Positions 6,708-35,885 of a stretch of DNA of 64,000 nucleotides are shown here, piece after piece. The notes under the pieces are model-generated. The model made no database searches. It was not told where the DNA came from and saw only the letters and a list, made by a program, of their open reading frames with translations. Position 1 is the stretch's first letter, and every line of letters begins with the position of its first letter. The DNA lies in the IMG/VR virus record IMGVR_UViG_3300042558_003642, positions 25,367-89,366 of that record; one strand, given 5' to 3'. The DNA is from a virus. Both the position numbers and the translations under genes were made by a program.

Positions 6708-7121
6708 TTAAGCTAAATTTTGTTCTTCGGGATTATTGTCAAATTGAGCAATAATAATAATATCATCTAAACTTTTGTCACCATTAAAATTAAAATTAGG
6801 TCTTGGTTGGTCAAAGTTTTCTCCCGTCTCTTTAAATGTTAAGATTTTATCTAATCTAAATAATCTCCAACCTGGCATAGGTCTTGTACCTAAAAATCCT
6901 CTATGAGACGCCCCTTCAGAATCCCAAGCTCTAACTACCAAGTTTTTTCTTTTTTTAGTTCTACCAATACAAACGGGTTCAATCTCTCTTAATCCTTTAC
7001 CACCTGGTTCGTCCCCATCGTAATATATGATGATTTTTTTTCTTTTTTTAACAGCATCAACAACTTGGTCCAAAGCGGCAGCTTCAGTTATTAAACTTTT
7101 AAGTGTTGATGTGAGTTTCAT
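6708..7121 (-). CDS. WYL-like domain protein with possible head-targeting leader
   Basis: 137 residues. KKIIIYYDGDEPGGKGLREIEPV, GRTKKRKNLVVRAWDSEG and GWRLFRLDKI follow the Sm-like beta-barrel pattern of WYL domains, which bind nucleic acid or nucleotides in bacterial regulators and phage-defence proteins. No helix-turn-helix is attached, so it is a minimal WYL protein. The first 13 residues, MKLTSTLKSLITE, look like a T4 capsid-targeting peptide with an I-T-E cleavage site. It overlaps the next gene's start by one base. The WYL assignment is moderate and packaging in the head is only a hypothesis. Confidence 0.55.
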   Translation of the reverse strand: MKLTSTLKSLITEAAALDQVVDAVKKRKKIIIYYDGDEPGGKGLREIEPVCIGRTKKRKNLVVRAWDSEGASHRGFLGTRPMPGWRLFRLDKILTFKETGENFDQPRPNFNFNGDKSLDDIIIIAQFDNNPEEQNLA

Positions 7122-8807: not shown

Positions 8808-11800
8808 ATGGCTTACCAAAATATTAATCAATATAACTTTCCAAAATGGTATATGTTGAACAGGTCTGATATAATGGATTTCTGTTTGGCATCAGATGAA
8901 CGGGATTATAAAGAAGAAGTGATTTTTTCACCTTATATCATTGGAAACACTGATGGTAACGTTTTGCCCGTCAAAATTGATTTAAACAACCCTGATAATA
9001 GTGAGTTATTTGTACTTGAGTATGATAACTACAACCCATTCAATATTATAGTTTCATCAAATTATTATAACCCTGATAATTTAGATTTATCTTGTTTTTC
9101 AGGTTTTAGTGCTCTTTGTGATGTTGGATTAACAGGTATTGACAATGGACTTGTTAAGAATATGACAGGTGAAACTGCATATATTACAAAGGGTATTAAT
9201 GACTTTACAAAATTTGATAGGTTATCTTTTGACCGAAGAATGAAATTCTTTCAGGTTACAGGATATACACAACCACCTAATATAAGATTTTCGGGGATAC
9301 CAAAAAACGATAACTATTCTATTGTTTCATATCAAAAAGATGTTGGGGTTTATCACGAATTATACGGAGGGTTTTATCAAGGGTTTTATAAACTATATGG
9401 GTATGATTATGAAATACTTCCTGATAGACCTCATCACGGGTGGTCTGCAGAATTTTTATTAAGACCGAGGATATGGGATGATTATTTTCCATCCTCAGGT
9501 GATACAACACTTAATGAAGTATATCCCGATAATGCGGGGATTTTCTTTTATATGGGAGCTAGAGCTGAGAATAAATTTTATCATTATGCGTCAGGCTCAC
9601 CATCAGGATTTACTGCATATACAAGAGTTACCGAAAGTTTAGTATCTACGGGAACAACAGGGACCACAAGTGGCTCAACTGGAGAAACAACTTGTCTTTT
9701 AACTTGCGGTTGTTCAAATAGTGGTAACACACTGTCAAATTGTTTACCTGTTTATCCACCTCAAAATTATATAACTGAAACTACACCATGTGGTACCACG
9801 CAAATAACTGCTCCTGAATTAAATCCGAGTGGAGATTCATGTTCTAATAATTTCGCAGTTAAATTTAGTGGTGACCCAGGTAACCCAAGAATATGTGTTA
9901 GAGTTTTAAGATTAACCGATGAATGTACTATTGACCAATGTACAAGTGCAAAGACTTATACATCGGGATGTACTGTTCAAGAATATTGTACACCAAAGGG
10001 GATACATTATTTTTGTGAAAATACTGATTACGTTAAATTTGAACATTGGGTTCAGGTTGACGTTGTATTTGAAAGATATAGAGACATGGATGAGTGTCAT
10101 CTTTGGTGGTATGGTGGATTAGGAGTCATTACTAACTTTGAATTAACGGCATCAACATATAATCAATCAGTCACATTAATTCAACCCCCATTTACTCATT
10201 TTAATGTTGTAACTTATACGTCAACAACTACAACATATACCGCAACAACAATTGACACCCCATATGGAAGAGAAGTTGTTGAATTAAATAATAAATGGTT
10301 ACAACAAAAAGATTATCGTTTAGGTAGATTAAAAATATATGTGAATGGTAGAAGGTTTCATACTTTTGAAAACTTTGAAGAAGTTATCCCAAGAGCATTA
10401 AATACGGAAAGAGAAAAACAAATTGGAGTTCCGTTTAACTTGTCATGGGGTGGAGGTACACAAGGGTTAAGAGAAAACTTAACATTTAAAGATTGTCCTG
10501 TTAGTTCGGTCACAACCACAACCACTACTTTATTTACTAATTCGGTTGTAACAACAACTACCACAACATTTTACGGTAACATTTACCAACAAGACCCTGA
10601 GTTGTTTCCTGATAGTGTTTTAAGTGGAACAAGTTTATCGGGATTAAATACAAATATAGTTTTAGAGAAATATTTTGCAGGAACTTTTGACGGTGGTATA
10701 TCTCAGTTTAATTATTACATTAAACCAATGACTGCAGATGAGGTTAAACACAATTATCTATTAAATAAAACAAGATATAATTTATTTGATTGGGATTGTC
10801 CAAATTGTGATGTATTTGTCCCTGAATGTGATTTAAGTGCAATCGTATATGAATACACCACAACTACTACAACAATACCCACAACCACAACAACAACTAC
10901 AAGTATTCCTTGTGATATTAATTATGACTTATTTAATGTTCCATCTGGTACCGAATTAACATTAATTGTTAATATGTATCCTGGGTCAATTGAGGCGGCC
11001 TATAACTTACAATTAAATAATGTTTTAGATTTTGATTTATCAATTTCATTTACTCAAGTTTTAGGTACGATTAGTGGTGATAGTATTAATATTGATAACA
11101 CTATCATAATACCAAGAGGTTCATTTAGTGCGGAAACTACGACAATAATTGATGGGGATTATAACATATTAGATGATACATCTGAGATTATTAACTTAGT
11201 ATGGACACCATATTGGGTAGATTTAGTCATTGGATTTTCATCTGAAACAATATTCAATCTTAATCCTTGTAATCAATACCTTACAACTGAAGGAGACGAT
11301 TTCATTGTCGCTGAAGATGGAAGATATATAGTTACAGAAATTGATTTATGTGACCCTTGTGTTGTATTAATTCAAACTGAATTTGATGATTATTTAACCA
11401 CAGAAGAAAATTATATATTAACATCGGAACGTAATCCTTGTTTACCTATCCCAAGTCCGACAATTACTCCAACATCAACAGTAACACCGACCCCAACTCC
11501 GACAATTACTCCAACAATTACTCCAACATCATCAGTAACACCAACACCAACCCCATCAATTACACCGACAATTACCCCAAGTGCATCTGAAATGCCAATG
11601 TATCCTTTAACGTTGTATATACAACCTTTAAGTGGTGGTCAGGCAATTATATTTGATGGGATAACTTACACTGCTGAAACAACTGTTAATGTTTATCTTA
11701 ACACTTTTTATAATATAGAATCAGTTCCAATTCCTGGATATATGTTTGTAGGATGGAACATTTATGGAGGTTCATTCTCATCAACAGGTCAAAGTACAAC

Positions 11801-12767
11801 TGTTGCCATCTCATTAACATCGGGGGCCAATTTAGCCCCATCATACGATGTTGACCCAAATTATGACGCTTTAGAGGGACAACTAACAACAAGTTTAGTG
11901 AGTTATCAAAATGCCACAGATAATGATTGGGTTATTATTACACAACAAGAATATAATAATATTTTTGGTAATGTCGATGGTGTAGTTAAAATTGGTAATA
12001 CTGATGAACAAGTAAACACGAGAGCTGTTGCAACTGGATATGATACTACAACTTTTGGAACAATTGATGCTAGCACCCCTCTTACGATACCTACAGGTTA
12101 TTATGTTGTAGGATTTGTTGCGGAGTCTTGGAATCAAAATGGACAGGTTCAACTTGGTTATACAACGAGTTATCATACCGGTACCCCAACTTATATGGGA
12201 AATTCACCAAATGTTATTGGTGGTATGACTATGTTCTACGTTAGAAAAAGACCTAGTGGTGTTGAAGCCGCTCCAGCGTCAACTAACTTATATCCAGTTT
12301 TAAATTTCTTATCACCCGCTTACCCAAATGCGGTTCCTGACACCTTTGGGTGGACAACAACAAACAATGGAGTTTCTTGGTTTGAAACGGTATCATCATC
12401 GCAGACCGCAAAAATACAAGTTCTACTAACAAACGTAAAATCTTGGCCATCAGCACCACCAAGTTCACCAACTCCAACACCATCCCCCACACCAACACTA
12501 ACTTTAACACCAAATTGTCAACGTAATATTGTGATTCCAACCTTATGGAATGGCGGTACAACTATTAATACAAATCAACTTATACTAACACAAACTTCAG
12601 AAACTTTACAAATACAAGTAAATGATATTATAACAGATAATAATGGGTCAACTAGTTTTGTAGGAATTGTTTCATCGGATGGTACATATACTTATGTATT
12701 TACAGGTGCAGGTGGTGGGGTTGCGTTTGATTGTCAATTCCCATTAACATTCACAGGACCTTGTTAA
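8808..12767 (+). CDS. Large modular tail-fibre/adhesin-like protein
   Basis: 1319 residues. The N-terminal part (to about residue 650) has two lectin/LamG-like jelly-roll stretches, for example AGIFFYMGARAENKFYH, RLKIYVNGRRFHTFENF and YFAGTFDGGISQFNYYI. Cys-rich insertions and poly-Thr linkers follow. A module beginning CDINYDLF (about 702-819) is repeated in the protein at 18354-19697. After it come a Pro-Thr linker (about 881-927), an InlB-like PLSGGQAIIFDG region and a C-terminal beta-rich domain. No signal peptide is seen, so it is most likely a virion surface protein binding host glycans. The first ATG follows the promoter element closely and fits an A-rich leader. Confidence 0.7.
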   Translation: MAYQNINQYNFPKWYMLNRSDIMDFCLASDERDYKEEVIFSPYIIGNTDGNVLPVKIDLNNPDNSELFVLEYDNYNPFNIIVSSNYYNPDNLDLSCFSGFSALCDVGLTGIDNGLVKNMTGETAYITKGINDFTKFDRLSFDRRMKFFQVTGYTQPPNIRFSGIPKNDNYSIVSYQKDVGVYHELYGGFYQGFYKLYGYDYEILPDRPHHGWSAEFLLRPRIWDDYFPSSGDTTLNEVYPDNAGIFFYMGARAENKFYHYASGSPSGFTAYTRVTESLVSTGTTGTTSGSTGETTCLLTCGCSNSGNTLSNCLPVYPPQNYITETTPCGTTQITAPELNPSGDSCSNNFAVKFSGDPGNPRICVRVLRLTDECTIDQCTSAKTYTSGCTVQEYCTPKGIHYFCENTDYVKFEHWVQVDVVFERYRDMDECHLWWYGGLGVITNFELTASTYNQSVTLIQPPFTHFNVVTYTSTTTTYTATTIDTPYGREVVELNNKWLQQKDYRLGRLKIYVNGRRFHTFENFEEVIPRALNTEREKQIGVPFNLSWGGGTQGLRENLTFKDCPVSSVTTTTTTLFTNSVVTTTTTTFYGNIYQQDPELFPDSVLSGTSLSGLNTNIVLEKYFAGTFDGGISQFNYYIKPMTADEVKHNYLLNKTRYNLFDWDCPNCDVFVPECDLSAIVYEYTTTTTTIPTTTTTTTSIPCDINYDLFNVPSGTELTLIVNMYPGSIEAAYNLQLNNVLDFDLSISFTQVLGTISGDSINIDNTIIIPRGSFSAETTTIIDGDYNILDDTSEIINLVWTPYWVDLVIGFSSETIFNLNPCNQYLTTEGDDFIVAEDGRYIVTEIDLCDPCVVLIQTEFDDYLTTEENYILTSERNPCLPIPSPTITPTSTVTPTPTPTITPTITPTSSVTPTPTPSITPTITPSASEMPMYPLTLYIQPLSGGQAIIFDGITYTAETTVNVYLNTFYNIESVPIPGYMFVGWNIYGGSFSSTGQSTTVAISLTSGANLAPSYDVDPNYDALEGQLTTSLVSYQNATDNDWVIITQQEYNNIFGNVDGVVKIGNTDEQVNTRAVATGYDTTTFGTIDASTPLTIPTGYYVVGFVAESWNQNGQVQLGYTTSYHTGTPTYMGNSPNVIGGMTMFYVRKRPSGVEAAPASTNLYPVLNFLSPAYPNAVPDTFGWTTTNNGVSWFETVSSSQTAKIQVLLTNVKSWPSAPPSSPTPTPSPTPTLTLTPNCQRNIVIPTLWNGGTTINTNQLILTQTSETLQIQVNDIITDNNGSTSFVGIVSSDGTYTYVFTGAGGGVAFDCQFPLTFTGPC
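11450..11590 (+). repeat. Pro-Thr-rich linker repeat
   Basis: Imperfect repeats encoding TPTPTITPTITPTSS-type sequence between two domains of the large fibre protein. Codons vary among ACA, ACT, ACC and ACG, so the repeat is stronger at protein than DNA level. It is a candidate glycosylation stalk. Confidence 0.8.
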
Positions 12768-12782
12768 ATTAAAAAATAAAAG

Positions 12783-12790
12783 TATTTATA
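12783..12790 (+). promoter_or_regulatory. Late-type TATTTATA element
   Basis: Lies 13 bases before the ATG of the solenoid fibre gene at 12804, followed by an A-rich leader with no Shine-Dalgarno site. Confidence 0.5.
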
Positions 12791-12803
12791 TAAAAACTAA
12801 AAA

Positions 12804-14999
12804 ATGGCAAACATTAAAATATCTCAACTTCCTGAATTCACAGGGTCAACGGATAATTCTTGGCTAATATTGAATAATTCAGGGCAAACTGAAACTTTTA
12901 AAATAACAAGAGAAAATTTCTTATCAGGTATTACAACTTATACTGAAATCACTTATAGTGAATTATATTCATTGTTTACAGGTGAAACTTTAACACCTGG
13001 TCAATTTTATTTAATGACCGATTTCCAAACTTGTTATGACCAACCTGATTTTAACCAAAGTGGTACTGCAATAATAGGTGATAACTATAAAACAGGTAGT
13101 ACAGAACCAATAGTTGTTTTAGCCACAAGTATTAACTCTCTATCACCTAAAGCGTATTCATTAGAATATCCATTTGATGATATTTCATATGATATAACAT
13201 TCACTCAAACTGAAATGACGAGTAATCCTGCAAAGGGTAGAATCACTGAAAGAATTGATGACTTTAATAATAGAACCGATTATGACCACAGAAATATATT
13301 ATTTAAAAGGTATAATGGGTATTCATATAATGAAAGTCAACCATTAAGTGGACTTGTTGGTATAAGTGGTATAACAGGAACTACGGCTGTTTTATATGGT
13401 AATACAGGTACAACGTTTAATTCAAATTTTTCAACAGGGTCACTTGTTGCAGTGACAAATATATTCCCATCAATTTTTGAGGTTATTTCTGTTGAGAGTA
13501 ATTCTATAGCAATTATATCAGGTGTCTCAATAAGTAACACTAGTAACTCACCTTACTATTTAGTAATTGATGATGGTATAATCAGCTATCGTAAACCTAA
13601 TGTAAGAGTTAATGAAGTTTTTGAATATACAACATTTGGTGATGCTACATCAATTAACAACTATGTTGGTAACTATGCAAATTTATATTCTTGGAATGAA
13701 AACCCATTTATCTTAGCAAACAATGTTTTTATTAGTGGTTCATTTATAAATAATACAATTGGTAATGATTCATATAATAACACATTTAATGATGATTGCG
13801 ATAGTAATCAAATAGGTGATAGTTTTTATAACAACTCAACAAATGATGATTTTGATGGGAATATAATTGGGGATTATTTTAATAACAATTATATCACATC
13901 CAATTTTAATAATAACAGAATCGGTAGTAATTTTAATAGTAATATTCTAATTGGTGGTTCTTTCTATAGAAATAATATTGGAAATGAGTTTAATAGTAAT
14001 GTTTGGACTAATGGTGATTTCCAAAATAATGAAATAGGTAACCAATTTAATAATAATAAAATCTACAACGAGTTTTATAATAATGATATTGGTAATGGGT
14101 ATAATAATAACGAAAGTTATTCAACTTATAATCGTAATTTAATTGGTAATGGTTATAATAATAATACTATATATTCTCAGTTTTACGAAAATGAAATCGG
14201 TCAAATTTTCAATAATAATACTATCTCAACCTTATTAGATTCCGGGAATTATGATTTTACAGGAAATAGAATTGGTAATGATTTTTATAATAACACAATT
14301 AAAAATGATTTTGTAAGTAACGACATTTTAAATGATTTTTATAATAATAGTCTGTATTCGGTCTTCAGGAAAAATAGTGTCTTAAATGGGTTTGAAGGAA
14401 ATACAATCGGAGATTCTGGTAACACTATAACCTTTGAAAACAATCAAATTATGAATACCTTCAAAGGTAATAATGTACAGGGAGACTTTTGGAGTAATTA
14501 CATTAAAACAAATTTTAAAGCAAACCAAACATTTGCCGAATTTGGTTATAACAATGTCGGTTATAGTTTTTTTGCAAATAATATGAGTGGACAAACAATC
14601 AGTAACAATATCGGAGATTATTTTGAATCTAATAATTGTTACGGTTCATTTTCATATAACACAATAGGGACTAGTTTTTCTAGTAATGATGTCCAAGATG
14701 GTTTTGGTTTCGGTGGAGGTACATACAGAGGAAATGTGATTGGTAATAATTTCAATAGTAATGACATCGGAGAATATTTTTACGATAATACTATTGGAGA
14801 TAATTTTACTAATAATACTATTGTAGATTATTTCCAAATGAACAGAATATGTAATAGTGTTATCTCTATTGATTTTTCAGAATCAACTCACGTATACGGA
14901 TTTTATAATTGCGAAATCTTTACAGGGTCAGGTGGTGGACAAAGACTATCATATTACGACTCAAGTGACGTACTAAACATAACAAACATAACAGCATAA
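12804..14999 (+). CDS. Solenoid (beta-helix-like) tail-fibre protein
   Basis: 731 residues. The N-terminal 300 residues resemble phage fibre or structural modules: ISQLPEFTGSTDNSWLIL, an FYLMTDFQT region and TDYDHRNILFKRY. Residues about 310-685 are an Asn-rich repeat with a roughly 10-residue period, N-x-I-G-x-x-F-x-x-N, alternating with N-x-I-x-x-x-F. The regular Ile/Phe spacing and Asn ladders are what a parallel beta-helix produces. A short Ser/Tyr-rich cap ends the protein. It probably forms a rigid virion fibre or receptor-binding spike. No catalytic motif was recognised. Confidence 0.72.
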   Translation: MANIKISQLPEFTGSTDNSWLILNNSGQTETFKITRENFLSGITTYTEITYSELYSLFTGETLTPGQFYLMTDFQTCYDQPDFNQSGTAIIGDNYKTGSTEPIVVLATSINSLSPKAYSLEYPFDDISYDITFTQTEMTSNPAKGRITERIDDFNNRTDYDHRNILFKRYNGYSYNESQPLSGLVGISGITGTTAVLYGNTGTTFNSNFSTGSLVAVTNIFPSIFEVISVESNSIAIISGVSISNTSNSPYYLVIDDGIISYRKPNVRVNEVFEYTTFGDATSINNYVGNYANLYSWNENPFILANNVFISGSFINNTIGNDSYNNTFNDDCDSNQIGDSFYNNSTNDDFDGNIIGDYFNNNYITSNFNNNRIGSNFNSNILIGGSFYRNNIGNEFNSNVWTNGDFQNNEIGNQFNNNKIYNEFYNNDIGNGYNNNESYSTYNRNLIGNGYNNNTIYSQFYENEIGQIFNNNTISTLLDSGNYDFTGNRIGNDFYNNTIKNDFVSNDILNDFYNNSLYSVFRKNSVLNGFEGNTIGDSGNTITFENNQIMNTFKGNNVQGDFWSNYIKTNFKANQTFAEFGYNNVGYSFFANNMSGQTISNNIGDYFESNNCYGSFSYNTIGTSFSSNDVQDGFGFGGGTYRGNVIGNNFNSNDIGEYFYDNTIGDNFTNNTIVDYFQMNRICNSVISIDFSESTHVYGFYNCEIFTGSGGGQRLSYYDSSDVLNITNITA
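13733..14855 (+). repeat. Coding repeat for Asn-Ile-Gly/Phe-Asn-Asn solenoid
   Basis: About 30-base degenerate units rich in AATAATAAT and ATTGGTAAT within the fibre gene. The period is visible in translation and the DNA copies have diverged. Confidence 0.8.
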
Positions 15000-25302: not shown

Positions 25303-27648
25303 ATGAAAAATTATAAAAATATATTTGACACAATATATAAAACTTGGGGATTTGGGGGCGGAGAGAGCCGTTCAGGGCCCGGAAGTACTTTACAGGAAAC
25401 TGAAGTAATACGAGAAAAAATTAAAAATTTAGTTAAGTATAAACGAATTAAATCTGTCGTTGATTTACCTTGCGGCGATTTTAATTGGATGAAAGAAATT
25501 GTTGATTCTTTTGACTCGTACCACGGAGGGGACATTGTGGGCGAATTAATTGTTTCAAATATTGAGAAATATAAAACTAATAAAGTCCAATTTTCAGTAA
25601 TTGATGTTCTTAATGATGAAATACCTAAAGCCGATTTATTAATAGTAAGGGATATTATTGGGCATTACCCAATTGAGGATGGTAAAAAGATAGTTGAAAA
25701 AATCATTAATTCAGGGTGTAAATACCTATTATCAACCACTTGGTATAATGTTTTAGACAGTAAATATTATTTAAAACACGAAAATAGTGATGTAGAATAC
25801 GGTAGATTTTATCCCGTAAATTTAATGAGTGAGCCGTTTAATTTACCTGAACCTGAATTAATTATTGAGGAAGATGTTGTAGTTGATGGGTATAATTTAG
25901 GTAATCGTAAAACACTTGGGTTTTGGAATTTAGAAGATTTAAAAAATAGTAAGTCAAAGAACGAGATTCTTACATTAGTTACAGGTCTGTGGGATTTAAA
26001 TCGGGATTCTTTATCTGAAGGATGGGCTAGACCATTTGAGGAACATTACATTAGAAAATTCAGAGAGTTACTTAAAACTCCACATAATTTAATAATTTAT
26101 GGGGATAGAAATCTTGAGAAAATTGTTAAAGAGTTAAGGAAAGATTATAATACACAATTTATTTACCGAGATTTGGAATGGTTTAAAACCAACGACTATT
26201 TTGATAAAATACAAAAAATAAGAACTGATAAAAATTGGACTGGTTTATCAGGATGGCTCGGGGACTCAACTCAAGCTAAACTTGAAATGTACAACCCGTT
26301 GGTCATGTCAAAAATGTTTTTATTAAATGATGCTAAATTATTAAGTAAATTTAATACTAAAAACATTTATTGGGTTGATGCGGGAATAACTAATACTGTC
26401 AGTATTGATTATTTTACAGATGAATCAATACTAAATAAACTACCTGAAAAATTCTCAAAATTTTCATTTGTTTGTTTTCCTTACGATGCGGTTAATGAGA
26501 TACACGGGTTCAAATACGACGCGATAAATAGATATTCTCAAAATAAAGTTAATAAAGTTGCGAGAGGGGGATTTTTTGGAGGAAATGTTGACACTATTAA
26601 TGAAGTTAATTCAATCTATTATAGATTATTAATTGAAACGTTAAACGAGGGTTTAATGGGAACTGAAGAATCAATCTTCACTATTATGATATATCGTTAT
26701 AATAAACTGATTGAGTACTCCGAAATTGATTCAAACGGATTGATTTATAAGTTTTTTGAAGATTTGAAGAATGACTCAATTGAAGTTAAAACTGAAACTA
26801 CTACTACATTTTCACCCATACAAAAAATGTCTAAAGATTTGAAAGTCGGTTTATACGTCCTTACTTTTAATAGTCCGAAACAATTCAAAACTTTAATTGA
26901 CTCAATGATACAATATGATAGTGACTTTATTAACAAATCTGAAAAGTATCTATTGGATAATTCTACGGACAAAACTACCAAAGTTGTGTATGATAAATTA
27001 TGTGAGGAATATAATTTTACTTACATATCTAAAGGGGAGAATTTAGGTATTTGTGGTGGTAGACAGTACATTGCCGAACATTTTGATAAGACAAAATTAG
27101 ATGCCTATTATTTCTTTGAGGACGATATGTTTTTTTACCCAAAAGAAAATGAGAAATGTAAAAACGGATTTGGTAGAATGGTAAAAAATTTATTTATAAA
27201 ATCCAATGATATCTTGTCAATGAATTCTTTTGATTTCCTTAAATTAAATTTTTCAGAGTTTTATGGAGATAATACAACGCAATGGGCGTGGTATAATGTT
27301 CCACAATCTGTAAGGGAAAAATTTTGGCCAAATTATTCGCAGTTACCAAAAATGGGATTAGACCCAAACGCTCCTAAAACAAAATTTAATAATATTATGT
27401 GTTATCAGGATGTACCATATGCTGATGGTGAGATATATTATTGTAATTGGCCTCAATTGGTTAGTCGTGAAGGTAATAAAAAAATGTTTTTGGATACTAC
27501 TTGGGCATACCCACACGAACAGACGTGGATGTCACATATGTACCAACTAACTAAAGAAGGTAAATTAAATCCTGGAATACTTTTATTAACACCTACGGAA
27601 CATAATAGATTTGACCACTATGAAAGAGAATTAAGAAAAGAATCTTAA
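25303..27648 (+). CDS. Three-domain methyltransferase / HtrL-YibB-like / GT2-like protein
   Basis: 781 residues. Domain 1 (1-215) is a class I methyltransferase: SVVDLPCGDFNWM near 50 and VRDIIGHYP. Domain 2 (about 222-475) resembles HtrL/YibB/WlaTC proteins: LVTGLWDLNRDSLSEGWARP, KLEMYNPLVMSKMF and IYWVDAGI. Domain 3 (about 510-781) is GT-A-like: VGLYVLTFNSPKQFKTLI, GENLGICGGRQYI and YFFEDDMFF near 603 as acidic metal site. This is a natural assembly line for a modified sugar. It closes the glycan cluster. Confidence 0.75.
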   Translation: MKNYKNIFDTIYKTWGFGGGESRSGPGSTLQETEVIREKIKNLVKYKRIKSVVDLPCGDFNWMKEIVDSFDSYHGGDIVGELIVSNIEKYKTNKVQFSVIDVLNDEIPKADLLIVRDIIGHYPIEDGKKIVEKIINSGCKYLLSTTWYNVLDSKYYLKHENSDVEYGRFYPVNLMSEPFNLPEPELIIEEDVVVDGYNLGNRKTLGFWNLEDLKNSKSKNEILTLVTGLWDLNRDSLSEGWARPFEEHYIRKFRELLKTPHNLIIYGDRNLEKIVKELRKDYNTQFIYRDLEWFKTNDYFDKIQKIRTDKNWTGLSGWLGDSTQAKLEMYNPLVMSKMFLLNDAKLLSKFNTKNIYWVDAGITNTVSIDYFTDESILNKLPEKFSKFSFVCFPYDAVNEIHGFKYDAINRYSQNKVNKVARGGFFGGNVDTINEVNSIYYRLLIETLNEGLMGTEESIFTIMIYRYNKLIEYSEIDSNGLIYKFFEDLKNDSIEVKTETTTTFSPIQKMSKDLKVGLYVLTFNSPKQFKTLIDSMIQYDSDFINKSEKYLLDNSTDKTTKVVYDKLCEEYNFTYISKGENLGICGGRQYIAEHFDKTKLDAYYFFEDDMFFYPKENEKCKNGFGRMVKNLFIKSNDILSMNSFDFLKLNFSEFYGDNTTQWAWYNVPQSVREKFWPNYSQLPKMGLDPNAPKTKFNNIMCYQDVPYADGEIYYCNWPQLVSREGNKKMFLDTTWAYPHEQTWMSHMYQLTKEGKLNPGILLLTPTEHNRFDHYERELRKES

Positions 27649-31270: not shown

Positions 31271-32392
31271 TTAAATTACATAAATCTGACGAGGTGCTGC
31301 TCTGAATTTAAGAGACTTATTAAGATTTTCAGCAATTTGTGCTTCTCTTTCCATTACCTTCTCAGGTTTTAATCTTGTAAGTCTACCATCAGCCCCAATC
31401 AACTCATCAATTAGTTTAGTTTTTTCATCTTTTGCTTCAGTTGCTAAAGATGTATAATCTAAAGTTAATTCAGAATCTGGAGTTTTCAAGTTTCCACTGT
31501 ATTTTCCTCGTACTCTTGCTAAAGTTTCTTTACAATATGCGACAAACCATCTTCTAACCCATTGTTTTGAAGGGTTATTTAAATCATCCCATGTAAGTTC
31601 TTCATAAGGAACATCATTAGGCGTTCTAATAATGTCAGGGTTTGCCTTTAAACAAGAATTTTTATCTTCAGGACCTACATCATAGTACCAATACCAAACT
31701 CTACCACCGGCAAACGTTGAACTACCAAAGTCAAATTTACCTCCAGGCGTATTCATTAAATGAACTGCTTTTTTACCATCGGGTAACGCTGTAACACGAT
31801 ATGTAAGTTCAGAAGCAATTATTCTCCTTTGGATGTTAATTTGTTGCATTCTTAACATCATATCAAATGCCGGCATTAAGAAATAAGACCCACTATAACC
31901 CAATTGTGCATATCCTCCAGGTCCTCCTATACCAGGTCCTCCCATACTACCAAAAGACCAAGGGTCAAATAAAAGATTTGTAAGTGTTGACGGAGTAAAC
32001 CAAAGTAACTCATTGAGTTCTCTTCCCGCAGGTATTTCATAAATTTGTTGACCTTTAACTAATTCAATATAATCTTTCTTTAATACCCAATCACCTCCAG
32101 TTTGTAAACCAACAATTTTAGAATATGCGTAAGTATATCTTGTTTCGTAATCTAAGGTCCTGGTAACAAATGCTCTAGATAAAGATTGTTCATCTAAATT
32201 TAAATTATATAATGACGACCATTGAGATTCAGTTAGCCAATCTTGGATGTATTGGGAATAGTCATCAATAGAAAACTCTAAAAGAGAGTCCATTTGTTCA
32301 TCTTCCAATTCAATACCTCTTAAAGGTGCACCAAGTAAATGTTTTACTTTTGTGAATAACTTATTTCTTTCAGGTTGTGATATTTTAGACAT
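31271..32392 (-). CDS. Neck / head-completion protein, gp13-like
   Basis: 373 residues. The N-terminal VKHLLGAPLRGIELEDEQMDSLLEFSIDDYSQY is the conserved adaptor-type signature seen in T4 gp13 and relatives, while the C-terminal two thirds, with a Gly-Pro-rich loop (SMGGPGIGGPGGY), is not in T4. It would close the head after packaging and dock the tail. A late-type element precedes it. The gp14- and gp15-like genes lie across the SOD and helicase genes on the other strand, so the usual neck order is kept but split by an insertion and a strand switch. Confidence 0.6.
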   Translation of the reverse strand: MSKISQPERNKLFTKVKHLLGAPLRGIELEDEQMDSLLEFSIDDYSQYIQDWLTESQWSSLYNLNLDEQSLSRAFVTRTLDYETRYTYAYSKIVGLQTGGDWVLKKDYIELVKGQQIYEIPAGRELNELLWFTPSTLTNLLFDPWSFGSMGGPGIGGPGGYAQLGYSGSYFLMPAFDMMLRMQQINIQRRIIASELTYRVTALPDGKKAVHLMNTPGGKFDFGSSTFAGGRVWYWYYDVGPEDKNSCLKANPDIIRTPNDVPYEELTWDDLNNPSKQWVRRWFVAYCKETLARVRGKYSGNLKTPDSELTLDYTSLATEAKDEKTKLIDELIGADGRLTRLKPEKVMEREAQIAENLNKSLKFRAAPRQIYVI

Positions 32393-32428: not shown

Positions 32429-34060
32429 TTATTTATATTTTGAACAATCTTCTAAATCAAGAGATTCATTGGTTGAAAAACTATGTATTAGGGAACCTGA
32501 TGGAAATACGTATGTCCCACTTGACACATCTAGTCCTGTATTTTTAAAAATTAAAACAACCTTATCAACAACGTTTACAAATACAAATAACGGAACTTTA
32601 TATAGTTGAACTGATGAACTTCCTAAAATTTTTATTTTGCCTTCCTCTTCAATAATTCTTGTAAATGGTTTTACTTGAGCTTCTTTCGTTCCATCTTCTA
32701 AATCAATTGTACAATCTGTTCCGAATGCATCTTTTTTAAGACCCAATCCTGAAGTTAATTTACAGACATTTTCACCAAGATTTCTATCAATAATTTGTTT
32801 AGCTGCGGTCTCATTTCGTTTTCCAATACAGTCTGAATAAGTTAATATTTTCCCAATTTTTTTATTTATTTCAGTGTTAGGATTGAATACTGTTTGTCTT
32901 AAAGAATCTAAAGCCGTGAAAAAGGTCTCCAAATTCAGTAGATTTTCCTCGTAGGTTCCCCCAAACTTAATATTCTCTTTACCAACCGAAGTTAGATATG
33001 TGTTAACATATTTGACTAATAAACAAAGTGCGGTATATGATGACGTTAAGTTATTCAGTAAAGACCTGACAGTTTCTCCTTTAGATTTACGATACACACC
33101 ACTCATATGAGTTCTGGTCTCATTGTGCCAATTGTTCGGAAATTGTTTTTTAAGTAGATTACTAATGTTTGAAACAACAATTGATTTAAGAGTTTTTTTA
33201 CCACCCTTAATTTCTTGTGGGGTTAACTTATGTTGGAAAATTGTTGATTTAATTACCCCTAATTCTGAAGAACTACATCCTTCAGTAACAGGAATATCTA
33301 ATAATGAAGAGTCATCTTGTTCTAATAACATTTCACTAACAAGTGACTCATTTATCTTGGTCTCAACTTTCATTTTGTATAATTGCTCAACAAAATCCCA
33401 ATTAATTACATTCCAAAAGTTTTTAACATATTCATCTCTTTTATTTTTGTATTTCAAATAATAGGCATGTTCCCATAAATCCAATCCTAAAATAGGATAC
33501 CCACCTCCTTTGAAGTCGTTCATTAATGGATTGTCTTGATTTGGACTTGATACAATTTTTAATTTATTTTGACTTGTTACAACTAACCAAACCCATCCTG
33601 AACCAAATCTTTCTTTAGCTACCTCATTAAATTTTTTCTTAAACAATGAAAAGTCACCAAAATCTTTATCAATTCTTGCGGAAACTAATCTTTTTGGTTT
33701 TTGTGGTTTTGGGGATAACATTTTCCAAAACAATGCGTGATTGTAGGCACCACCTGCGTTGTTTCTAACATCTTTACTAAACTTAGTTATTGATTGGACA
33801 ATTTGTTCTAAATCTAAATCACCAAATTTTTTCTTACTTAACGCCGCGTTTAATTTGTCAACATACCCCTTATAATGTTTGTTATAATGAACATTCATTG
33901 TTTCGGGGTCAATAAAGGACTTTAAAGATGAATAAGAATATGGTAATTTTTCAATTCCAATTTTCTTCATTTCGGTCATTAAGAAATTCTCACTTATATT
34001 TTGAGTCTCCTCTTTAATTTGAGATTCTATTAACTGAATCTTATTTTCAATAGATTTCAT
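32429..34060 (-). CDS. Superoxide dismutase fused to a possible PD-(D/E)XK nuclease
   Basis: 543 residues. Residues about 38-232 are a complete Fe/Mn superoxide dismutase: metal ligands His58, His108, Asp194 (DLWEH) and His198, gateway Tyr66, and GSGWVWLV. Gly104 and Gln175 (NQDNPLM) favour manganese. Residues 260-543 are not part of any dismutase. FGTDC (Asp449) and AQVK (Gln462, Lys464), with Glu417 in an upstream helix, resemble a D-QxK nuclease core of the Mrr kind. The first 36 residues are a helical leader with L-I-E at 10-12, and M-L-L-E at 244-247 separates the halves; both resemble phage prohead-protease sites. It has a late-type promoter. Dismutase is certain, nuclease tentative. 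Confidence 0.85.
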   Translation of the reverse strand: MKSIENKIQLIESQIKEETQNISENFLMTEMKKIGIEKLPYSYSSLKSFIDPETMNVHYNKHYKGYVDKLNAALSKKKFGDLDLEQIVQSITKFSKDVRNNAGGAYNHALFWKMLSPKPQKPKRLVSARIDKDFGDFSLFKKKFNEVAKERFGSGWVWLVVTSQNKLKIVSSPNQDNPLMNDFKGGGYPILGLDLWEHAYYLKYKNKRDEYVKNFWNVINWDFVEQLYKMKVETKINESLVSEMLLEQDDSSLLDIPVTEGCSSSELGVIKSTIFQHKLTPQEIKGGKKTLKSIVVSNISNLLKKQFPNNWHNETRTHMSGVYRKSKGETVRSLLNNLTSSYTALCLLVKYVNTYLTSVGKENIKFGGTYEENLLNLETFFTALDSLRQTVFNPNTEINKKIGKILTYSDCIGKRNETAAKQIIDRNLGENVCKLTSGLGLKKDAFGTDCTIDLEDGTKEAQVKPFTRIIEEEGKIKILGSSSVQLYKVPLFVFVNVVDKVVLIFKNTGLDVSSGTYVFPSGSLIHSFSTNESLDLEDCSKYK

Positions 34061-34079: not shown

Positions 34080-34087
34080 TATAAATA
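34080..34087 (-). promoter_or_regulatory. Late-type TATTTATA element
   Basis: On the minus strand, 19 bases before the ATG of the superoxide dismutase fusion gene, implying late expression. Confidence 0.5.
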
Positions 34088-34097
34088 ATCCTTTTTT

Positions 34098-35885
34098 TTA
34101 ATTTTTCAATGTATTAATTGAATTCATTATTTCATACGCCATATCGGTTTTGTCCATATTATCCCCCATGACTGTTTCAAAGATATTTTTCTTACGAATT
34201 AAAATGTCATAAATTATCCCTTCAATTGTATTTTCAAAAATTGGGTAATACACTGATACACAATTTTTTTGACCATATCTGTAAGCCCTATCTTCAGCCT
34301 GTGAATGGTCTGAAGGTAAAAATGACAAGTCATTCATAATTACAGCTTCTCCTGCAGTTAAAGTTAACCCGACACCTGCTGCTTTTATATTACCACAAAA
34401 AACCATAACTTTTTCATCTTCTTGGAAATCGTCAACTGCTTTTTGTCTTGCTGGTTTGGTTGTTGTACCATCTAAATAAACTGCTTTTTTACCAAAATGT
34501 TCGTAAATTTTTCTTAATGGTTCAGTGAAATTACTGAATATTATAACTTTTTTACCCTGTTCAATAATGTTTTCGACAATCTCAATTGTGTGAGGAACTT
34601 TCTCTTCAGCAATTACTTGTCTAACTTTAGTTAATTTGGTAAACTGAACAGATACTGAATTTGATTCATTTTGTTTATTATACCAATCATAATATTCTCC
34701 CATTAATTCTTCATAAAATCGGGAGTATAGTCTTAAATAAATTGGAGTAATAATTTTATCGGGTAAATCTAACACGTCAGTTTTCAGTCTTCGTAAAACT
34801 TGTTTTGAAATCCTATCTCTCAATTCTTCTAAGTTTGACGCTCCTTGAACATTCCAAATCTTTCTTCCTTTACCAACACTAAATTGATATCCTTCACAAT
34901 AACGGATAACATAGGCCATCCAATTTTGGGCGACGGGACTATCAATAATTCTTAAAAGGTTATAGTAATTAATTGGTCGGGAAGTAATTGGTGTCCCCGT
35001 TAACAACCATATTTTTTTAACTTTATCAGTTATGTCATTTATTAATTTAGTTCTTTGTGCCTGAACATTACTTATATAATGTGCTTCGTCAATAATCACC
35101 AAATCAAATTTAGATTTAAGAATTTGTGAATTTTCTTTATCCTTTGTGTCGTGAAAATTTTTAATGATATCATAATTTGAAATAACAAAATCTGACTCTT
35201 CATATTTCTTACCTTCACAAATATAGATTGACCTATCTGAATAATTTCTAATTTCTCTCTCCCAATTAAGTTTTAAAGATGCGGGACAAATAATCAATAT
35301 TCTTTTAGCACCACTCTCTAACGCTGCAATAATTGTAGATGTGGTTTTACCTAATCCCATATCATCGGCTAAAATAAACTTGTCATAAGCGAGTAGTTTT
35401 TCTATTGCCTCTTTTTGGTGAGATAAAGGAGGTCGGTTTGAATACTTAGAGTAATCAACATTAACCTCATTAACTTTCTGTTCCTTTATGATTGCCACTT
35501 TTGGGACCCAAAAATCGTGAGATGTTTCACCACTGAATATTTTACCCCAAATATGATAGGATTTATCTTTTTCTACCAATAATTTTTCAACATAAATTTT
35601 ATCAGGTTCGGAAATAAACGGGTTACTCTCAACTAATTTTTTGGCAAAATAGTTATCAATTTCAACCCACTTTTTGGCAACTTTAGGTTCTTTATTGTGG
35701 AAACTTAGAATATATTCAGCTTGAGCTCTTGTAGGGTAAAACTTTTTATTAACAGACTGTTGTTGTTTTAACCTAAGAATATAGTTATTCGCTCCTGAAT
35801 AATTCTGAAGAATTTCAAGCGCTTCAACCTCTTTTATTTTAATTGAATTTTCTATCTTAAATAGTTTTGATAAAAGATAATACAA
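34098..35885 (-). CDS. SNF2-family DNA helicase/translocase
   Basis: 595 residues. Motif I DDMGLGKT is at 174-181, motif Ia ILIICPASLKLNWE, the DEAH box IIDEAHYIS near 265, motif III LLTGTP, motif V AAGVGLTLTAG and motif VI EDRAYRYGQ. This is the SMARCAL1-like branch of SNF2 proteins, which remodel or anneal branched DNA; T4 UvsW plays a comparable fork-remodelling part. The only in-frame start near the N-terminus is TTG at 35885, with no early ATG, so the true start could be further upstream. It is expressed toward the SOD gene. Confidence 0.9.
   Translation of the reverse strand: MYYLLSKLFKIENSIKIKEVEALEILQNYSGANNYILRLKQQQSVNKKFYPTRAQAEYILSFHNKEPKVAKKWVEIDNYFAKKLVESNPFISEPDKIYVEKLLVEKDKSYHIWGKIFSGETSHDFWVPKVAIIKEQKVNEVNVDYSKYSNRPPLSHQKEAIEKLLAYDKFILADDMGLGKTTSTIIAALESGAKRILIICPASLKLNWEREIRNYSDRSIYICEGKKYEESDFVISNYDIIKNFHDTKDKENSQILKSKFDLVIIDEAHYISNVQAQRTKLINDITDKVKKIWLLTGTPITSRPINYYNLLRIIDSPVAQNWMAYVIRYCEGYQFSVGKGRKIWNVQGASNLEELRDRISKQVLRRLKTDVLDLPDKIITPIYLRLYSRFYEELMGEYYDWYNKQNESNSVSVQFTKLTKVRQVIAEEKVPHTIEIVENIIEQGKKVIIFSNFTEPLRKIYEHFGKKAVYLDGTTTKPARQKAVDDFQEDEKVMVFCGNIKAAGVGLTLTAGEAVIMNDLSFLPSDHSQAEDRAYRYGQKNCVSVYYPIFENTIEGIIYDILIRKKNIFETVMGDNMDKTDMAYEIMNSINTLKN

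Follow-up and report, generated by a model that had tools for sequence, protein, structure and literature searches.

The window analysed in the present study is a stretch of 64,000 nucleotides of viral DNA (positions 25,367 to 89,366 of IMG/VR record IMGVR_UViG_3300042558_003642). One gene of this window joins a helical leader, a superoxide dismutase (SOD) and a C-terminal domain of the PD-(D/E)XK nuclease type (Table 1). The open reading frame named in the preliminary description was found intact, with 543 residues, on the minus strand. A scan with the whole protein returned at least 592 confirmed IMG/VR relatives, and nearly all of the best 80 of these align from end to end, which shows that the leader-SOD-nuclease fusion is ancient and common and is no accident of assembly. 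The members are T4-like bacterial viruses of a large uncultured group. In the BFVD structure collection one family member (A0A6J5L953) is labelled merely 'superoxide dismutase', and a marine phage protein of 1113 residues shares the fold of the C-terminal domain. Scans with divergent queries for further architectures gave few loci, mainly known fusions or near-copies.

Table 1. Positions in the window of the gene, its predicted parts and its neighbours.
Feature	Position	Strand	Basis
gp13-like neck gene (head-tail adaptor), the downstream neighbour in nearly all checked loci	31271..32392	minus	locus comparison
Entire precursor gene (543 residues: leader, SOD, PD-(D/E)XK-type domain)	32429..34060	minus	ORF, Pfam, alignment
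PD-(D/E)XK-type nuclease domain, residues 248-543	32432..33319	minus	invariant residues, model, fold matches
Gln462-Val-Lys464, invariant QxK, next core strand	32669..32677	minus	alignment, model
Asp449, invariant, begins core strand	32714..32716	minus	alignment, model
Asp444, invariant	32729..32731	minus	alignment
Glu417, invariant, in long core helix	32810..32812	minus	alignment, model
Glu247, P1 of second putative junction site MLLE↓Q	33320..33322	minus	junction count
Glu238, P1 of putative site KINE↓S	33347..33349	minus	alignment, junction count
Mn-type SOD, residues 31-238, with H58, H108, D194, H198	33347..33970	minus	Pfam, PDB sequence matches, alignment
Glu30, P1 of putative prohead-protease site FLMTE↓M	33971..33973	minus	leader comparison
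Helical leader, residues 1-30, putative capsid-targeting propeptide	33971..34060	minus	leader comparison, model
TATTTAT promoter-like element	34081..34087	minus	upstream-region comparison
UvsW-like helicase, next upstream in nearly all checked loci	34098..35885	minus	Pfam, locus comparison

Gene slot and promoter-like element

The gene occupies a fixed slot in the order UvsW, leader-(SOD)-nuclease gene, gp13-like, p111 and PolB, on which 22 loci agree as far as they reach; the exception is L111, with one extra ORF on either side. Of 71 distinct upstream regions, 68 have the heptamer TATTTAT ahead of the ATG, mostly 22-30 nt away from it, and TATTTAT(A) corresponds to the T4 late consensus in reverse complement. 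The late promoter that had been proposed earlier, TATAAATA, occurs in only one of the 71 regions and was not upheld. Likewise, TATAAATTA was rejected as the promoter, for it is not conserved and TATTTAT(A) is the conserved element of the family. In the record of the window and in G001, TATTTATA follows the orientation of the genes, with 52 upstream regions that have it and 14 that have the reverse complement. Within the window, the sheath, tube, hub and gp13-like genes have TATTTATA or TATTTAT in front of them, and the PolB and SSB-like genes have neither. TATTTAT(A) is thus a candidate for, and probably is, the late promoter of this lineage.

The nearest cellular SODs come mostly from Bacteroidota/Ignavibacteria (45-53% identity). 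The close relatives of the capsid protein include Flavobacterium phage immuto, Microcystis phage Mel-JY01 and a metagenomic huge phage, and the hosts are likely Bacteroidota. Several short or unannotated 'phage' records (OR846937, OR850395, OR845917 and similar ones) match the SOD at 44-47%; these may represent contaminating DNA of hosts.

The dismutase and the C-terminal domain

Residues 37-226 belong to the Fe/Mn SOD family (PF00081/PF02777), with E-values of 6.6e-23 for Sod_Fe_N and 2.6e-40 for Sod_Fe_C, and both Pfam domains lie well above their cut-offs (81.4 and 137 bits vs 27 and 20.9). The metal ligands, three His and one Asp (H58, H108, D194 and H198), do not vary in an alignment of 21 members, as the earlier assignment to an Mn-type dismutase with four metal ligands had supposed. 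The signatures NNAGG and NQDNP are markers of Mn-type SOD; N101-A102-G103-G104 and N174-Q175-D176-N177-P178 are invariant among the SOD relatives, and the best PDB sequence matches of this part are manganese-type enzymes. The domain has the full fold, ligands and Mn-type signatures in common with the family, but it sits inside a phage precursor, flanked by protease-type sites. It is also much better conserved than the C-terminal domain in the alignment comparison, which argues for selection on its predicted activity.

Free-standing SODs are encoded by other phages, where they adjoin metabolic or chaperone-like genes. In the jumbo phage PA5oct, gp223 (L310:2456-3004) is called 'hypothetical protein' and is a shortened SOD homologue; the record carries a note of ESI-MS/MS, which probably means detection in the virion. 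In the MIJ3 paper, SOD was not among the few virion bands analysed. PA5oct gp223 and the SOD of Vibrio phage 2.275.O resemble the protein of the window as phage-encoded homologues with the ligands apparently kept, but they have neither the nuclease domain nor the 30-residue leader and they lie in another neighbourhood.

The C-terminal domain gave only chance-level matches against Pfam and PHROGs, and a sequence-profile search of the PDB returned no trustworthy match. A tblastn search of 50,697 phage records with a single query, the SOD-less L106 protein, found no relative, and one degenerate pattern, which makes for a weak negative, found none in 85,000 bacterial and archaeal GTDB genomes. The structure could be modelled with high confidence by AlphaFold2 from 61 diverse members (pLDDT 92.6, pTM 0.87). 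In order, the model has a long helix that bears E417 (numbered E174 there), a strand, D444, a strand beginning at D449 and a strand with Q462-x-K464. In the Foldseek search, the PDB matches that combined a high probability with the smallest E-values were PD-(D/E)XK enzymes, namely I-Ssp6803I, the DREN domain of SPARDA and NhoI (E-values 4.7e-3 to 0.3, TM by query about 0.2-0.27), with I-Ssp6803I as the best (E 4.7e-3, TM by query 0.24) and Hjc as a weaker match at a probability of 0.4-0.5. These matches are partial, since nothing in them corresponds to the helical first half of the domain. The DREN domain is known to have the PD-(D/E)-XK fold (PMC12205087). In the viral structure library, PD(D/E)XK endonucleases and a Holliday-junction resolvase were matched.

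The D449...Q462-x-K464 core that had been likened to PD-(D/E)XK enzymes was thus recovered in the model and in the fold search. All three residues are invariant among the 61 diverse members; the same holds for E417 and D444, not listed in the preliminary description. Replacement of D/E by Q in the (D/E)xK motif is a variant known in the PD-(D/E)XK superfamily, and I-Ssp6803I has QxK as well. The domain has the modelled core of I-Ssp6803I, DREN, NhoI and Hjc, with the E-D-QxK residues in matching order. It differs from these nucleases in having no match in Pfam, PHROGs or the searched phage records, and in adding a conserved N-terminal helical part and the invariant D444. According to the model, it is probably a new PD-(D/E)XK-type family and probably catalytic. 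A paralogue of 493-501 residues with a diverged copy of this domain was observed between the p171 and p346 homologues (L039:2121-3623 and L020:2160-3638, both on the minus strand); it has an MKIxITExQ N-terminus, a zinc ribbon, a Phage_L5_gp82 domain (PF25735) and FVI[SN]E sites.

Leader, cleavage-type sites and the SOD-less genes

In the fusions the leader is almost always exactly 30 residues long. Among 51 distinct leaders, its last three residues have Glu at P1 in all 51 and Leu or Ile at P3 in 48, and P2 is free, as in FFINE↓M and LFLNE↓M; the protein of the window has Met at P3. At the end of the SOD, [LI]xE coincides with E238 in 57 of 64 distinct junctions, and the other seven, judged by eye, have MxE or a shift of one residue. 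In 63 of the 64 junctions, the stretch from E238 to the conserved Cys262 contains another [LI]xE, compared with a mean of 23 and a maximum of 34 after shuffling. The earlier proposal of [IL]-x-E sites in the leader and at the junction was therefore borne out far above the shuffled expectation, with Glu247 as the second junction site and E238 as a further conserved one. In the leader, the site proved to be E30 (residues 28-30) and not Glu12, where [LI]xE shifts or is missing in relatives.

Several features count against reading these marks as sites of a precursor. The [LI]xE motif is short and degenerate, the protein of the window departs from it at P3, and P1' at E30 is usually Met, when a small residue is common there in T4-type sites, such as the E↓A of gp23; M31 could be just an ancestral SOD start. 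The full-length model is weaker than that of the C-terminal domain (pLDDT 74, pTM 0.50), with a helical leader, and its confidence minima include residues 22-41 and 235-258 in addition to 67-95 inside the SOD. The first two regions, around the sites, are probably flexible in this model, which lends the sites mild support. A leader HMM found no other protein convincingly sharing the leader in G000 or G001, so that the leader is no shared capsid-targeting sequence (CTS). Other N-termini also drew attention. Proteins starting MKL..LITE↓A (e.g. MKLTSTLKSLITEAAAL) resemble short T4-type capsid-targeting leaders (window 6711-7121, minus strand; L202:987-2579; L204:6366-7742). In addition, MK[IL]IITESQ begins many unrelated small proteins, several in a row (L216:1408-4657 and other G001 stretches), and this N-terminus is a possible common virion-targeting tag.

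The partners expected of a T4-type head are encoded in the record of the window, upstream of the window: a Peptidase_S77 (C1:8226-8960, 8.1e-26) and gp23 (11034-12896). Among ten relatives, the gp21-type protease and gp23 were found in eight and nine, respectively. The capsid protein of the record carries HLINE↓A, by comparison at the position where T4's own gp23 is cut, and the [LI]xE sites flanking the SOD resemble this LINE↓A site of the same phage. In T4, gp21 cuts after L/I-x-E and the internal proteins carry removable CTS propeptides; enzymes fused to a CTS, one of them a nuclease, have been delivered by the phage (PMC9026906). The present protein has in common with IPI/IPII/IPIII and Alt, which are processed by gp21, a short putative N-terminal propeptide with an L/I-x-E end, a gp21-type S77 protease, a gp23 with a like site and a late-type expression signal. 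It differs from them in being unrelated in sequence, in having a leader of 30 residues instead of 10-19, and in joining two enzymes with internal sites; its packaging is a prediction. The artificial CTS fusions that T4 has been used to deliver (beta-galactosidase, staphylococcal nuclease and GFP) likewise join a propeptide to an enzyme domain, but the present fusion, with its putative propeptide, is natural, ancient and widespread and has two cargoes per chain.

The SOD can be missing from this arrangement. We sampled 33 ORFs, many of them near-copies, that have the C-terminal domain without SOD in the same slot, and four large records (215-318 kb) with such a gene contain no SOD match anywhere. 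On a quick tree of the C-terminal domain the SOD state changes at least twice, in counts that alone give no direction. In the L125/L139 type, with the order leader-SINE↓MKKIEIEKL-KSIISE↓GKSERCS, two sites still enclose the start of the SOD, and that change was therefore a loss of the SOD. The leader is kept when the SOD is lost, except in L134, where most of it is gone, which indicates that the leader serves the gene and not the SOD. Since the SOD is dispensable and the nuclease is retained, the nuclease appears to be the core function and the SOD an added cargo.

Alternatives and biological meaning

We infer packaging, cleavage, ejection, catalysis and target from the features above, and on balance we favour a precursor that is targeted to the prohead, cut at E30, E238 and E247, and ejected as two enzymes with the DNA. 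The protein would be made late in infection by a T4-like phage, and its leader of 30 residues would draw it into the prohead core. The S77 (gp21-type) prohead protease would then cut behind the [LI]-x-E sites near E30, E238 and E247, freeing an active Mn-SOD (31-238) and the PD-(D/E)XK-type nuclease (about 248-543) within the head, where both would stay until they leave with the DNA at ejection. The conserved cut marks at both joints match the phage's own head-maturation protease, and the enzymes are for this reason probably packed, cut apart and injected. The nuclease, as the constant component, probably acts early on host or rival DNA, or on packaged DNA. The SOD would be an optional cargo that probably gives protection from superoxide, either to the genome (incoming or packaged) or to the cell just infected. 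The fuller reading, a head polyprotein that injects an Mn-SOD and a nuclease of a new family, the latter against host or rival DNA and the former as guard of the genome or the cell, we hold to be evenly poised between right and wrong.

T4 gp49 does the job of a resolvase and DNA-packaging nuclease, and the main rival explanation, which we consider rather unlikely, gives a similar role to the C-terminal domain: a phage nuclease for Holliday junctions, branched DNA or packaging, at work in the cell or at the neck, with the SOD as a passenger and no need for packaging or cutting of the protein. The position of the gene between UvsW, a helicase of branched DNA, and a neck gene agrees with this, as does the retention of the nuclease where the SOD is lost. 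Hjc and a phage Holliday-junction resolvase are also among the fold matches, but the Hjc probability is low. Endonuclease VII, RusA and RuvC, the three families to which the argument from absence is confined, were absent above cut-off in nine large relatives, all within incomplete records. A resolvase would leave unexplained the constant leader with its [LI]xE end and the [LI]xE at both ends of the SOD and before the nuclease.

Those same marks bear on an uncut, late bifunctional enzyme, in which the leader would be a coiled-coil oligomerisation helix and [LI]xE a product of charged helix composition, with the SOD shielding the replicating pool and the nuclease acting in the cytoplasm. The helical leader of the model and the metabolic or chaperone-like setting of the free-standing phage SODs speak for it; we consider it improbable because the sites are conserved above composition at three fixed places, P1 is fixed while P2 is free, and the leader outlasts the SOD. 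Finally, the C-terminal domain could be a variant of the fold that binds DNA without catalysis and thereby keeps the SOD on the packaged DNA as an antioxidant guard. SOD is among the redox-resistance enzymes packaged in virions of large eukaryotic viruses (review, PMC9405923), which favours a guard of this kind, and so does the Q in place of the usual D/E of the motif. Nevertheless, this explanation is very improbable, as E417, D444, D449, Q462 and K464 are all invariant, as expected for an active site, the domain persists without the SOD, and I-Ssp6803I, which leads the fold matches and has QxK too, is active as a nuclease.

Phage SODs and CTS-type internal proteins were already known; in the open literature, the scope of our search as distinct from subscription journals, we found no report of a dismutase in a phage head, of an SOD-nuclease fusion or of a naturally occurring precursor of the two in which maturation sites are conserved. 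If the prohead precursor is confirmed, it would be, within the literature searched, the first demonstration of a dismutase packaged in the head of a bacterial virus and a natural counterpart to engineered CTS-enzyme delivery. It would also account for hundreds of proteins otherwise labelled plain 'superoxide dismutase' auxiliary metabolic genes, and it would add a new nuclease family and a modular system of leader, sites and swappable cargo to the injected content of large phages. Very common uncultured T4-like phages would then have particles that contain both dismutase and nuclease, and oxidative chemistry would belong to the first minutes of infection or to the survival of the virion.
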